A program made the translations under genes and the position numbers. 64,000 bases of DNA from Pseudomonas sp. R84 (GTDB lineage Bacteria; Pseudomonadota; Gammaproteobacteria; Pseudomonadales; Pseudomonadaceae), in NCBI RefSeq assembly GCF_009834515.1, contig NZ_CP019426.1, forward strand, positions 558,001-622,000, in the 5' to 3' direction. A model generated the notes under the pieces. The model did not search any database and was not told the origin of the DNA. It saw only the letters and a list, made by a program, of their open reading frames with translations. Each line of letters opens with the position of its first letter. Within the stretch, counting starts at the first letter, position 1. This document shows, in pieces, positions 2,751 to 51,556 of this stretch.

Positions 2751-4766
2751 ATGTTCGCGCCTGCCAATCAACCGCGTTTCACGTTGACCCTCGAAGGCGC
2801 CCAACATGACCTCAAAGTCCTTGAGTTCACGGGCAAGGAAGCCATCAGTCAACCCTTTCGTTTCGAGCTGGAACTGGTCAGTGAACGACCGGATCTGGAT
2901 CTCGAAAGCCTGCTGCATTGTCAGGCGTTTCTGAATCTGGATGCTCAGGGTTCCGGTATCCACGGTCAGATTTATCAGGTCGGGCAGGGCGATTCGGGGA
3001 AACGTCTGACGCGCTATCACTTAAGCCTCGTGCCACGTCTGACGTATCTGGGACACCGCATCAATCAGCGGATTTTCCAGCATCAGAGCGTGCCGCAAAT
3101 TGTTGCGCAGGTGCTTAAGGACCACGCGATCCTTCGTGATGCTTTCGATTTTCGGTTAGGCAGTGAATACCCGGTTCGTGAGTATTGCGTGCAGTACGCC
3201 GAGAGCGATCTGGCGTTTATTCAGCGCCTGTGTGCCGAGGTGGGCATTCATTACCACTTTCAGCACAGCCCGCAAGGTCACCTATTGGTGTTCGGCGATG
3301 ACCAGACCGTGTTCCCGCGTCTGGCCGAGCCGACGGTTTATCTGCCGGGCAGCGGCATGTCCGCTGGTGCGCCGGCGATTCAGCGTTTCAATGTTCGCGT
3401 GGAAACCCGCACCAGCGTGGTCACACGGCGTGATTACAATTTCATCAAGCCGCGACTGCAGTTGCAAAGTCGTGTCGACGCTGAGCAGCGCCCGGTGCTG
3501 GAGGACTATCACTTCCCTGGCCAATTCAATGATCGGGAGACCGGCAAGCATCTCGCCCAGCGCGCACTTGAGCGACATATCGCCGATTATCGTCAGGCCG
3601 AAGGCATCAGCGACGAATCCGCACTGGTTTGCGGACATTTCCTGCAACTGAGCGAGCATCCGCGCGACGGCTGGAATGACCTGTGGCTGTTGACCGCCGT
3701 TGAACACCACGGCCGTCAGCCGCAAGTACTGGAAGAATCGGTGACCAGCGATGGCGAGGGATTTCAGGGTTACCGTAATACCTTTCTCGCCACGCCGTGG
3801 GACGTGTTTTTCCGCCCGGCGCTGGGGCCGGAAAAACCACGCATGCCTGGTTATCAACCAGCGGTTGTGACCGGGCCGAAAGATACCGAAATCCACTGCG
3901 ACGAGTACGGCCGGGTCAAGGTGCAACTGGCTTGGGATCGCGACGGTGAATTGAATGAGCATTCCAGTTGCTGGCTGCGCGTTGCCACTAATTGGGCGCA
4001 CGACCGTTACGGCAGTGTGTTGATTCCGCGAGTCGGTATGGAAGTGCTGGTCGGTTTCATCGATGCCGACGCCGACAAACCTTTGGTCGTGGGCTGCCTG
4101 CCCAATGCCGCGACGCCGATTCCGCTGGATCTGCCGGCGGACAAGACTCGTAGCATTTTCCGCAGTCAGAGCAGCCCCGGCGGCGGTGGCTACAACGAAC
4201 TGCGCATAGAGGATAAGAAAGGCGCTGAGGAAATCTATCTGCGCGCCCAGCGTAACTGGACGCAGCATGTGTTGAACGATCAACAGGTGCAGGTTGATAA
4301 CCAGCGCAGCATCGTCGTCACCGGCACCGCGCGGCATGAGTTGAAGGCTGATGAACAGCGCATCACCCACGGTCAGCGCCAGACCGAAGTGAGGCAGGAC
4401 GATCATCTGAGCGTGACCGGCGACCGTCATGTTCGCGTGAGTAATCAAGCGATCAGCGCCAGTGGGCAATTCCACGTCAGCGCTGGTCAGCAAGTGGTCA
4501 TCGACGGCGGCGCGAGTGCGACGATTCAGGCTGGCGGGCAATGGATCAACATCGGCCCGGGTGGCATTTTCAGCAGCGTGCCGATTGTCGTGGGCGGCGC
4601 AGCGATGGCGGCGATGAGTGCCGCGCCGGTTGTACCGGGATTGCTGGAGAAACTCGCCGCCGCGCCGGCTGCCATGCTCACCGCTGCACAAATCATGAGT
4701 TTCAAGGGTGATGCGCCATTCTGCGAAGAGTGCGAGCGTTGCAAGGACGGTCTCTGTGCAGCCTGA
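2751..4766 (+). CDS. vgrG: Type VI secretion spike protein VgrG
   Basis: A 671-residue VgrG with the gp27-like N-terminal part (about 1-370), the gp5-like OB-fold (about 375-470, containing DEYGRVKVQLAWDRDGE) and the SSPGGGGYNELRIEDKKG segment that opens the beta-helix needle. VgrG trimers tip the type VI secretion tube and carry effectors into target cells. The C-terminus runs through a Gly/Ala-rich stretch into a short Cys cluster (C658, C661, C664, C669). No toxin domain is fused. No other T6SS structural gene is in the window, so this is an orphan vgrG island. Its stop overlaps the start of the adaptor gene. Confidence 0.95.
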   Translation: MFAPANQPRFTLTLEGAQHDLKVLEFTGKEAISQPFRFELELVSERPDLDLESLLHCQAFLNLDAQGSGIHGQIYQVGQGDSGKRLTRYHLSLVPRLTYLGHRINQRIFQHQSVPQIVAQVLKDHAILRDAFDFRLGSEYPVREYCVQYAESDLAFIQRLCAEVGIHYHFQHSPQGHLLVFGDDQTVFPRLAEPTVYLPGSGMSAGAPAIQRFNVRVETRTSVVTRRDYNFIKPRLQLQSRVDAEQRPVLEDYHFPGQFNDRETGKHLAQRALERHIADYRQAEGISDESALVCGHFLQLSEHPRDGWNDLWLLTAVEHHGRQPQVLEESVTSDGEGFQGYRNTFLATPWDVFFRPALGPEKPRMPGYQPAVVTGPKDTEIHCDEYGRVKVQLAWDRDGELNEHSSCWLRVATNWAHDRYGSVLIPRVGMEVLVGFIDADADKPLVVGCLPNAATPIPLDLPADKTRSIFRSQSSPGGGGYNELRIEDKKGAEEIYLRAQRNWTQHVLNDQQVQVDNQRSIVVTGTARHELKADEQRITHGQRQTEVRQDDHLSVTGDRHVRVSNQAISASGQFHVSAGQQVVIDGGASATIQAGGQWINIGPGGIFSSVPIVVGGAAMAAMSAAPVVPGLLEKLAAAPAAMLTAAQIMSFKGDAPFCEECERCKDGLCAA

Positions 4767-5469
4767 TTTTCTTTTGCCTGCCGATTGGTTGGCGCGCGAA
4801 CCTTTGCAAGCATCCGAGCAATTGTTCGCGGTGTTCAGCAATGCCAGCGAGGCGAAGCCGCTTGAGGGTTGGCCAGACACGGCGAGCCCGATCTGGGCCG
4901 AGACGATCTATGCCGAGTGGGATGCGGTGATGCCTTACGTGGGAATTGTCGCCACCGACAGTGAGTTTCTGCATTGGGTTGCAACCAACGAGTCGCAGGA
5001 TTGGGGGTGGCTGGCGGTGTCTGCGGCGAGTCTTGAAGAGGTGTTGGCGCACTTTCGCAGCCTCACCCAAGTGCTGTTGCCTGACGGCAAAACGGTGTTT
5101 TTTCGTTTCTGGGATGGGCGGTTTCTGTTGCCGATTCTTCAGGCCGATGAGGTGGATGCGGCGCAACTGTTTCCGCTGATCGGGCGTTGCTTGATCAATG
5201 GGCAGGCGCTGGATATCGGTGGCAGGGCGCAGGTTTCGGGGCGGATATTTCCTTGGTGGCAGGTGCCGGAATCGGTGCTGGCGCAGCAGGGCAATGACGT
5301 TCGAACAGCCAATGCGTTGCAGTGGTTGAGCGAAGAGTGTCCGGCAGTCTTCGAGGCCTTTCCCGAGGCGGTTTTGCGTTGCAAGGTCAGGCGGTTTTTT
5401 CAGGTTTCAATGTCGGAAGAATCGTCGCAATCGGTGTTGCTGGCGTTTTTGCTGGCAGAGTCGGAATGA
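4756..5469 (+). CDS. DUF4123 family T6SS adaptor/chaperone
   Basis: A 237-residue protein of the DUF4123 family (Tap/Tec-type adaptors that load effectors onto VgrG). The GTG at 4756 is preferred: an AGGACGG ribosome site lies just upstream, the start overlaps the vgrG stop by 11 bp (translational coupling), and it gives the expected N-terminus (QPDFLLPADWLA). Conserved features include the WGWLAVSAASLEEVLAHFRSL stretch, followed by VFFRFWDGRFLLPIL. In most vgrG islands the next gene is the cognate effector; here none follows. Family assignment is from pattern recognition, not a search. Confidence 0.85.
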   Translation: MQPDFLLPADWLAREPLQASEQLFAVFSNASEAKPLEGWPDTASPIWAETIYAEWDAVMPYVGIVATDSEFLHWVATNESQDWGWLAVSAASLEEVLAHFRSLTQVLLPDGKTVFFRFWDGRFLLPILQADEVDAAQLFPLIGRCLINGQALDIGGRAQVSGRIFPWWQVPESVLAQQGNDVRTANALQWLSEECPAVFEAFPEAVLRCKVRRFFQVSMSEESSQSVLLAFLLAESE

Positions 5470-5628
5470 GTTTTCGGGGCGAAGGTCTCGGACGATTCCT
5501 TCGAGTTGCGGCGGTTTTCATGAACTGGTGGGCGGTGGGTTGCAGGGATAGTCTTTTCGTTGTCACTGCGAGAGTGGTGACAGGGTGTAGGAGCCCTCTA
5601 CCTGTGGTGCATCAGCGCTGTTGTTTGA

Positions 5629-5798
5629 ATTGCGGCACGTAACTTGTGTGAGCAATGTCGTCAGCGGCGGCTGTGTGCGGGACACGCTTCGGCGTGGCCG
5701 AATTCCATGGGTCGGTTTCCTACTCCCGCGCACGGCTGCCACCCAATCCCGTAGGAAGGAATGCGGCAGTTCACTTTTACACTCTATGGAAGATAGAA
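5629..5798 (+). ncRNA. Predicted structured leader RNA (three-way junction plus two possible pseudoknots) ahead of the 5799 gene
   Basis: Seen directly in the sequence: a 5-bp outer stem at 5629-5633/5652-5656. Next, an uninterrupted 16-bp helix 5666-5681/5725-5740 (three G-U pairs) encloses two hairpins. One is 5683-5687/5692-5696 closed by a cUUCGg tetraloop. The other is 5698-5701/5712-5715 with a 10-nt loop. That loop (5703-5710, TTCCATGG) can pair over 8 bp with 5784-5791 (CTATGGAA), which includes the Shine-Dalgarno. The junction strand 5716-5723 can also pair with 5751-5758. The layout suggests a riboswitch-like or ribosomal-protein-leader-like translational control element. Transcription and ligand are unknown. 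Confidence 0.6.
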
Positions 5799-6116
5799 AT
5801 GACGACAATACGAACGGCTCCACCCTACGAAAAAATCATTCCCCATCCCGACAACCGCTTCATGGCCCTGACCGGCAATTGCAGCGACATGCCCACCCTG
5901 TTCATCGACACCCACGTGCCCCTCGACATCCTTATGGACGCCGCCAACCACCGCCTGCGCGCGGTGATCCAGGTCCTGGAAAACATGTGCATGCGCGGCT
6001 CGGTCGAATGCGACTCCGTCATCCTCAGCGATTTCGCCCAGCTCTGCGTGATTCCTCTGCGTGACGGCTGCGATGTGCTCGATGTCATCGGCAGGCGCCT
6101 GCGCGCCGCGCCATAA
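5799..6116 (+). CDS. Small uncharacterised protein (DUF3077/DUF6124-like)
   Basis: A 105-residue soluble protein, MTTIRTAPPYEKIIPHPDNR at its start, with no signal peptide or membrane segment. The ATG at 5799 is chosen because GGAAG lies 6 nt upstream; the frame stays open to 5655 but that part coincides with the structured leader RNA. The layout (short Pro-rich start, then a central stretch predicted helical with LDILMDAANHRLRAVIQVLEN, and a C-terminus ending in RRLRAAP) resembles the small DUF3077/DUF6124 proteins abundant in pseudomonads. The family assignment is tentative and no function is known. It is a single gene between the vgrG island and a MITE-like repeat. Confidence 0.7.
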   Translation: MTTIRTAPPYEKIIPHPDNRFMALTGNCSDMPTLFIDTHVPLDILMDAANHRLRAVIQVLENMCMRGSVECDSVILSDFAQLCVIPLRDGCDVLDVIGRRLRAAP

Positions 6117-6124
6117 AAGCAAAG

Positions 6125-6402
6125 CCCCTCACCCTAACCCTCTCCCAGAGGGAGAGGGGACTGACCGAGTTGTCTGGGTGATGTACGCCGACCTGCGACT
6201 TCAGTGGTGAATTTGGCTTGGCCAAGCCTGGATGGAGTTGTTGTTTCAGGGGGCGGACCGAGTTGTCTGGGCGATGTGCGCCGACTTCCGCGCTGATCTT
6301 CGCTTGGCCAAGCCTGAGATCCCGCTGATCTTTCAGGTCGATGTAACTCGCAAGATCACTCGGTCAGTCCCCTCTCCCTCCGGGAGAGGGCTAGGGTGAG
6401 GG
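6125..6402. repeat. MITE-like inverted-repeat element, copy 1 (with internal duplication)
   Basis: Ends are an inverted pair: 6125-6170 (CCCTCACCCTAACCCTCTCCC type, running into ACTGACCGAGT) and 6358-6402. Inside, a ~30-bp module (GACCGAGTTGTCTGGG and following, 6163-6192) recurs at 6255-6284, and CTTGGCCAAGCCTG occurs at 6217-6230 and 6303-6316. No ORF is carried. Related elements lie at 55886-56061 and 63460-63670. Confidence 0.75.
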
Positions 6403-6483
6403 CAGGCTTTTGTCCGCTCGGCTGCGAACCCCTGACTTGCCGCCCGGTAAAAGGTAAACTTTGCGCCCTTCGCAGGAGCAGCC

Positions 6484-7323
6484 ATGAATTATCGTCACGC
6501 CTTCCATGCCGGCAATCATGCCGATGTGTTCAAACACCTGACCTTGACCCGCCTCATCGCCCTGATGTCGCGCAAGGAGCAGCCGTTTGCCTATCTCGAC
6601 ACGCACGCCGGCATCGGCCTGTATGACTTGCAGGGCGATCAGGCCAACCGTACCGGTGAGTACCTGGAAGGCATCGCGCGCTTGTGGGATCAGCCGGATC
6701 TGCCGGCGCTGACCGCCGACTACATGAAGGTGTTGCACGAGATGAACCCGGATGGCCAGCTGCGCTACTACCCGGGTTCGCCGGAGCTGGCGCGGCGCCT
6801 GACCCGCCCGCAGGATCGGGTGATGCTCAACGAGAAGCACCCGGAAGACGGCGTGCTGCTCAAGGACAACATGGCCGGTGATCGTCGGGTCAAAGTTCAT
6901 CTCGGCGAGGGCTGGCACGTTGCACGAGCGATGCTGCCGGTGCAGGAGAAACGCGCAGTGATGTTGATTGATCCGCCGTTCGAGCAGCTCGACGAGATGC
7001 AGCGTTGCGCGGCGTCGTTGAAAGAGGCGATTGGCCGGATGCGTCAAACCGTGGCGGCGATCTGGTATCCGGTGAAGGACCAGCGTGCGCTGCGCCGTTT
7101 CTATCAGGATCTGGCTGGCACCGGTGCGCCGAAGTTGTTGCGCGTGGAATTGCTGGTGCACCCGCTGGATACGCCGAACAGCCTGAACGGCTCGGGCATG
7201 GCGATTGCCAATCCGCCGTGGGGGCTGGAGGAAGAATTGCGTGAGTTGTTGCCGTGGTTATCGAAGAAGCTTGGGCAGACTCAGGGCGGGTGGCAGATGG
7301 ATTGGTTGATTGCCGAGAGCTGA
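6484..7323 (+). CDS. rlmJ: 23S rRNA (adenine(2030)-N6)-methyltransferase RlmJ
   Basis: A 279-residue protein of the RlmJ (YhiR) family, which methylates A2030 of 23S rRNA with S-adenosylmethionine. The N-terminus MNYRHAFHAGNHADVFKHL is the family signature. YLDTHAGIGLYDL (about residues 37-49) is the SAM-binding loop, and the catalytic motif IDPPFEQ (about 162-168) is the D/N-PP-Y/F motif of N6-adenine methyltransferases. An AGGAG ribosome site sits just upstream. Length matches the family. It is convergent with msrA across an inverted repeat. Confidence 0.95.
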   Translation: MNYRHAFHAGNHADVFKHLTLTRLIALMSRKEQPFAYLDTHAGIGLYDLQGDQANRTGEYLEGIARLWDQPDLPALTADYMKVLHEMNPDGQLRYYPGSPELARRLTRPQDRVMLNEKHPEDGVLLKDNMAGDRRVKVHLGEGWHVARAMLPVQEKRAVMLIDPPFEQLDEMQRCAASLKEAIGRMRQTVAAIWYPVKDQRALRRFYQDLAGTGAPKLLRVELLVHPLDTPNSLNGSGMAIANPPWGLEEELRELLPWLSKKLGQTQGGWQMDWLIAES

Positions 7324-49208: not shown

Positions 49209-49418
49209 GAGGCGATCCCTAGCATTAATATTATGGAAGTAATCCGGGCGCCAACGTTAAGGCGCAGGCCCCGCAGCGTCAAGGCGTGGCGGGGCAAAGC
49301 GAGTGTAGTTGTGCATTTGCCTCACAACAATCGGCCAAGCCCCTGTATTTATGCCATTCATCATGGTGTTTGCTGCGGTGTTGGCGTTCTTTGCCGGTTG
49401 TGTCTAGACTGGCCGGGT

Positions 49419-51556
<2,138 letters not shown>

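Follow-up and report, generated by a model that had tools for sequence, protein, structure and literature searches.

A C4-type antisense RNA as the predicted control leader of a small-protein gene in Pseudomonas sp. R84

The window, a 64,000-nt stretch of the Pseudomonas sp. R84 chromosome, contains a gene for a 105-aa protein at 5799 that is preceded by a highly structured leader. A gene for VgrG, the tip of type VI secretion, and then a DUF4123 gene (2751-5469) lie directly upstream of this locus. On the other side, inverted repeats of the CCCTCTCCC/GGGAGAGGG type occupy 6117-6400, between the small gene and an RlmJ-like gene at 6484, and yield a sub-threshold match to Antizyme_FSE. Elsewhere in the window, at 49415-49520, there is a TPP riboswitch (RF00059, 84.9 bits). 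A search of 5450-5830 gave no sigma-70 consensus promoter. A consensus scan returned two terminator-like hairpins in the stretch scanned, with 0.5 expected, and the one at 5604-5621 overlaps b1 upstream of C4. The features of the leader and its gene are as follows.

5587..5593, + strand: possible a1 site, 7 bp with a', at the position seen in phage P1 (sought in the window sequence)
5600..5607, + strand: candidate b1 site, complementary over 8 bp (G-U at two of them) to the b' loop at 5705-5712
5660..5746, + strand: C4 antisense RNA, by its match to RF01695
5666..5740, + strand: stem P1, 16 bp (5666-5681 with 5725-5740), by fold and compensatory changes
5683..5696, + strand: hairpin P2 with a UUCG loop (5-bp stem, 5683-5687/5692-5696), by fold and compensatory changes
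5698..5715, + strand: hairpin P3 with a 10-nt loop (stem 5698-5701/5712-5715); the loop contains b' (5703-5711)
5716..5723, + strand: antisense segment a', pairing with 5751-5758
5751..5758, + strand: target site a2, 8 bp with a', just 3' of C4
5783..5791, + strand: target site b2 over the ribosome-binding region, 9 bp with b'
5799..6116, + strand: target gene, 105 aa, with 238 relatives

The 105-aa protein has no match in Pfam, NCBIfam, PADLOC or PHROGs. Of 244 candidates, 238 qualify as its relatives at E 0.001, the top 120 of them being listed. A tblastn search with the protein found no match in 50,697 phage and 72,556 plasmid records. The predicted structure (mean pLDDT 58.8) is too poor for a fold search. 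Homology of its family to DUF6124 or DUF3077, two families that recur below, was considered and is unsupported, with profile-comparison probabilities of 8.0 and 0.2.

The identity of the leader follows from Rfam family RF01695, to which the C4 antisense RNAs of phages P1 and P7 belong and which covers 5660-5746 at 60.4 bits (gathering cut-off 45) over the entire model, 1-87 of 87. By sequence, this structured leader represents a chromosomal copy of phage P1's C4 antisense RNA. The preliminary description had been unable to place the leader in any RNA class, and this family match, which it had itself named as evidence against novelty, refutes novelty at the level of the class. In the same Rfam search, riboswitch families gave no match in 5400-6500 up to E 1. 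The architecture described earlier is nonetheless accurate. All 16 pairs of its unbroken helix are found at 5666-5681/5725-5740, and the cUUCGg hairpin and the second hairpin with its 10-nt loop are both present at their coordinates; these are, respectively, stems P1, P2 and P3 of C4. The loop-to-ribosome-site pairing is likewise borne out, with eight pairs (5703-5710/5784-5791) that become nine when 5711-5783 is added, as are the eight pairs of a second crossing helix (5716-5723/5751-5758). Both crossing helices are the antisense contacts of C4, b'-b2 and a'-a2. Family membership and fold are thus read directly from the locus; the single-sequence fold is more stable than those of shuffled sequences (z -2.45), two of 200 shuffles being equally stable.

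Comparison between loci gives the stronger evidence. Conservation of this structure was examined in 79 Pseudomonas loci, taken from 267 stretches that encode a relative of the window protein. A covariance model built from 35 C4 sequences of the window's own genome (the window copy included, the weak locus L036 left out) places C4 directly upstream of the gene in 77 of the 79. The two exceptions are L057, with only 80 nt of contig upstream, and L101, which lacks the 5' arm. In L101 the 3' half of C4 is kept, as are the target sites, and the contig starts about 750 nt upstream. In an alignment of 74 leaders (the window and 73 relatives), the three stems keep their pairing in 99.5%, 97.5% and 95.9% of cells. 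Compensatory changes in the 16-bp stem are directly observed, 7 of its 16 pairs changing on both sides in these leaders. Over the whole structure, both-sided changes occur in 187 cells, compared with 69.5 in shuffles (0/500), and 21 pairs change on both sides, compared with 14.8 (1/500), whereas the count of further pair types, 57 against 54.1, is not clearly above the shuffles (43/500); the shuffle counts are not probabilities, because the leaders are related and the structure was derived from the window. A block resembling GTCCGTAAGATC, between b1 and C4, is common to many homologous leaders, and the window copy (5629-5659, A2 columns 9-41) differs from it.

Compensation in the two pseudoknots, which the preliminary description had put forward as a check, is seen in part. 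In the alignment the crossing helices fit less well (77.5% for a; 60.8, 80.3 and 71.8% for the pieces of b), because loop and target vary in length. The b pairing is out of register in the MAFFT alignment and was therefore tested per locus instead, where it is matched. Among 43 distinct homologous loop windows, b' and its own start region reach a run score of 20.07 against 13.82 +- 0.46 (0/2000 permutations). Complementary sites and their match at each locus can be seen directly in such combinations as CCTAACGT with ACGTTAGG, TCCATGATTG with CAATCATGGA and TTCCAAAGGC with GCCTTTGGAA; poor matches also occur, with 5 bp at L107 and 4 bp at L062. The a' pairing gives a run score of 17.84 against 16.74 in the homologs, equalled by 0 of 2000 permutations; by energy, 1641 of 2000 permutations are as good. 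Within the window's own genome, none of 2000 permutations is as good for a'. The a' pairing is thus less private than that of b'.

The leader also has a candidate upstream copy of the target sites. Both a1 and b1 fall outside the interval 5629-5801 covered by the preliminary description. Taken singly, the window's a1 and b1 are possible sites only, short matches of which b1 scores 18, little above the permuted mean of 15.4, and the case for b1 rests on sets of loci. In 38 distinct homologous leaders b1 scores 20.32 against 16.24 +- 0.41 (0/2000 permutations), and over 36 loci of the own genome 19.19 against 15.42 +- 0.40 (0/2000). A control stretch further upstream than b1 shows no match in 20 loci (1217/2000 permutations as good).

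The window copy is one of 36 C4 matches on the single 6.6-Mb contig of its genome, 35 of them over the cut-off and the weakest (L036) at 39.6 bits. A start codon, picked by hand from the listed frames, follows each of the 36 about 45-60 nt past the end of C4. By coordinates, the genes behind them are 29 of DUF6124, two of DUF3077, two of Bro-N (L001 and L036) and three of the window family; the two besides the window's own, at L026 and L035, belong with it by profile comparison (probability 97.6). At L004 a 24-codon frame comes first, and the DUF3077 frame starts about 70 nt later. Of the genome's 33 DUF6124 genes, 29 directly follow a C4; among the remaining four, three have no C4 over threshold nearby and one stands second in a tandem. 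One DUF6124 protein has a single phage match, at the edge of a prophage record beside prtR, which probably represents flanking host DNA.

Proteins encoded behind C4 repeatedly carry an N-terminal P-[DN]-P-P motif, spelled by similar codons (CCCGATCCACC or CCCAACCCACC). By the pattern used, it is found in 29 of the 36 C4-led genes of the own genome, and these are the 29 DUF6124 genes; the window's gene (5799-5840) reads TAPPY and stands outside this count. A like N-terminal pattern is present in 85 of the best 120 relatives of the window protein. The motif also turns up where the gene matches no family, L174 being one case. The recurrence may reflect a shared leader-plus-start cassette or a constraint at the RNA level.

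Pairing between the loop and the gene that follows is largely a matter of each copy. Across the 36 loci, b' pairs with its own start region at a mean of -15.8 kcal/mol, compared with -8.9 for cross pairs, and none of 2000 permutations is as good as the native arrangement (34 of 36 loci, L014 and L029 having been dropped for want of an anchor). Ranked by energy, 16 of 36 loops have their own target in first place, and 23 of 36 targets their own loop. By run score, 28 of 36 loops have no better partner than their own target, and 24 of 36 targets none better than their own loop. Nine paralog pairs share 85% protein identity or more; both cross scores are below both self scores in six of them, one pair is tied and two do not follow the pattern. 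Ranks and paralog cross scores together indicate that C4 pairing is largely, not strictly, private. The window's b' loop is a comparatively weak one. Nine of the 35 foreign targets outdo its own in pairing energy (row rank 10), a point against a tight private switch. Seen from the target, no other antisense fits better by energy than its own C4 (column rank 1).

C4 leaders are common in the genus. C4 was found in 184 of 199 sampled Pseudomonas genomes (183 over the cut-off); in a sample of 145 genomes from across the order, the own genome included, 20 have it. Among 29 relatives, in which up to 103 candidates were scored per genome, there are at most 42 C4 copies and at most 33 DUF6124 genes per genome; the two counts are only loosely linked, genome G009 having 38 C4 and two DUF6124 matches. 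In 20 loci of five further Pseudomonas genomes (G003, G006, G007, G008 and G009), chosen from the listed matches, b2 pairing scores 22.5 against 14.1 +- 0.7 (0/2000 permutations) in 19 of the 20, L185 having been dropped for lack of a frame. The b1 signal is weaker there, at 18.3 against 16.9 +- 0.5 (4/2000 permutations as good). Of ten proteins scanned in this set, four are DUF6124 or DUF3077 over the cut-off, one is a weak DUF3077 and five have no match. A sample of 20 C4 loci from 11 genomes of other genera, again chosen from the listed matches (three loci from G319, in the same family, the rest from other families), also shows self-pairing, 21.9 against 16.8 +- 0.6 (0/5000 permutations). 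A run of at least 7 bp lies close before the start codon in 17 of the 20, the exceptions being L159, L160 and L164. Eight genes scanned behind these C4 comprise three of Bro-N (L158 just under the cut-off), one of KilA-N and four without a match.

We favour, with a probability of about 0.9, the reading that the leader is a C4-type antisense RNA repressing translation of the 105-aa gene at 5799, with processing and repression modelled on phage P1. Because the anatomy is shared, the window RNA should act on this gene as P1 C4 does on its targets. The leader would encode the C4 antisense together with its own target, as in the phage P1 immI operon. By analogy with the phage, which also guides the assignment of transcript start and trans action, a transcript starting upstream of a1 would carry a1-b1-C4-a2-b2-gene, and C4 would fold into its three-stem body and then be cut out (in phage P1 by RNase P). 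Pairing of b' with the ribosome-binding region b2, and of a' with a2 just 3' of C4, would then block synthesis of the 105-aa protein, whether in cis, in trans or by both routes, and repression would be expected to lift when C4 is titrated or left unprocessed. Weighing against this reading are the weakness of the window's b' loop, the less private a' pairing, the lack of a sigma-70 consensus in 5450-5830, the terminator-like hairpin over b1 and the four DUF6124 genes that stand apart from a C4.

The preliminary description had proposed instead a metabolite- or protein-sensing switch. In such a riboswitch, ligand binding to the stem-junction body would free a ribosome site that the P3 loop otherwise covers. 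A compact, stable fold and a loop-to-ribosome-site pairing within one leader would suit such a riboswitch, but the leader belongs to a known antisense family, and a single body stands before several gene families (DUF6124, DUF3077, Bro-N and the window family; outside the genus also KilA-N). An aptamer would be expected to conserve the P3 loop; here the loop is variable and co-varies with its target, as for an antisense RNA, which argues against ligand sensing, and the second, upstream set of target sites has no obvious place in a riboswitch. The RF01695 match and the co-variation of loop and target led us to reject this reading as very improbable. What persists of the earlier proposal is a leader for translational control, with a loop complementary to the ribosome-binding region of the 5799 gene and a second pairing compatible with the first; the ligand does not. 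Scarcely credible is the idea that the conserved region is an N-terminal protein extension. The frame is open from an ATG at 5655 in the window, but changes in the region follow base pairing, and 59 of 75 distinct homologous leaders contain an in-frame stop in the 144 nt that precede the gene's start. As these stops interrupt the frame, the upstream region is not conserved as protein and the coding reading of the 5655 frame is rejected.

Readings that accept C4 and differ on its action deserve more weight. C4 might never be released, with the leader pseudoknot setting a constant low level of translation by self-masking in cis alone. In its favour, antisense and targets stand some 30-80 nt apart in one stretch, and for 28 of 36 loops no foreign start region has a higher run score than the own one. 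However, P1 C4 is described as trans-acting in the relevant passage of one paper (PMC8546580) and named among RNase P substrates in that of another (PMC11143913), and an excerpted study of Acinetobacter C4-like RNAs reports that, with two transcripts excepted, read coverage is higher from a GGW motif onwards (PMC5320573); if Pseudomonas resembles these systems, the RNA would be released. Action in cis only is therefore a lesser possibility, to be kept in mind. Chromosomal C4 might also serve mainly in immunity, targeting the antirepressor mRNAs of incoming phages in trans, with pairing to the downstream gene a relic. Trans targeting of phage antirepressor mRNAs is one of two options proposed for Acinetobacter C4 in the same excerpts (PMC5320573), and the Bro-N genes behind C4 at L001 and L036 would be in line with it. 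However, at many homologous loci the loop and its start region go on changing together, as a relic would not, and we consider this explanation improbable.

The RNA class is thus already known, and the window copy is a new member of it with a new target gene; the part worth following is the genome-wide array. A phage immunity RNA appears in Pseudomonas as a common chromosomal leader, and at each copy the loop and the start region of the target evolve together, providing a natural library of RNA-RNA specificities. The leader is, moreover, a handle on small protein families on which the literature searched offered almost nothing. No description of a Pseudomonas C4 array was found among the best matches listed from that literature, which is weak evidence of absence because it comprised open-licence papers only. 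The same search found no mention of DUF6124 and one of DUF3077, in connection with a pseudogene mutation in a furfural-tolerant P. putida. A more speculative proposal, which we think rather unlikely, is that Pseudomonas has domesticated P1-type C4 into as many as about 42 largely private modules per genome, each silencing one small protein, so that loss of C4 would release the whole set as a sensor or defence response. The silenced families would then be DUF6124, DUF3077, the window family and others without a name, and the trigger would be a failure of C4 processing or of C4 supply, such as might follow phage interference with the host's RNA metabolism at the processing step.

Comparison with phage P1 places these leaders among known systems. 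The c4-icd-ant region of phages P1 and P7 has the same three-stem body, with b' in the P3 loop and a' before the 3' arm, and the order a1-b1-C4-a2-b2-gene is that of the P1 c4-icd locus; the annotated P1 record gives a1, b1, c4 (77 nt), a2, b2 and icd, with a1 and b1 marked putative. Spacings are close when measured from the mature 77-nt RNA in P1 and from the 87-nt Rfam match in the window: from the end of C4, 51 nt in P1 and 53 in the window to the start codon, and 4 and 5 nt to a2. The end of b2 lies 11 nt from the start codon in P1 and 8 nt in the window. Sites a1, b1, a2 and b2 pair with C4 over 7, 7, 7 and 8 bp in P1 and over 7, 8, 8 and 9 bp in the window, the P1 sites being taken as annotated (7-8 nt long) and those of the window as the best runs within the stretch searched. 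Unlike its phage counterpart, the window C4 is chromosomal, with VgrG, DUF4123 and RlmJ-like genes as neighbours; it is one of 36 in its genome, and it precedes, in place of icd or ant, the gene of a small protein outside any named family. The mRNAs of icd and ant are those on which P1 C4 is listed as acting in the portion of PMC10695390 that concerns it. A P1-type immI operon is recognised by an icd or antirepressor target, and the locus is not classed as one, its gene matching nothing in Pfam, NCBIfam or PHROGs.

The c4 antisense RNA and c4-a1b1 motifs appear in the list of Weinberg et al. 2010, the former in Proteobacteria and phages in the section at hand (PMC2864571), and the window copy falls within this known proteobacterial range, which according to excerpts of PMC5320573 includes Pseudomonadales. 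A parallel to the array is offered by the multi-copy Group 1 C4-like sRNAs of Acinetobacter baumannii, which, as far as those excerpts go (PMC5320573), likewise occur many to a genome with differing a' regions. Bacterial targets were left open there, whereas the Pseudomonas copies have complementary sites in their own leader and a gene start directly behind.
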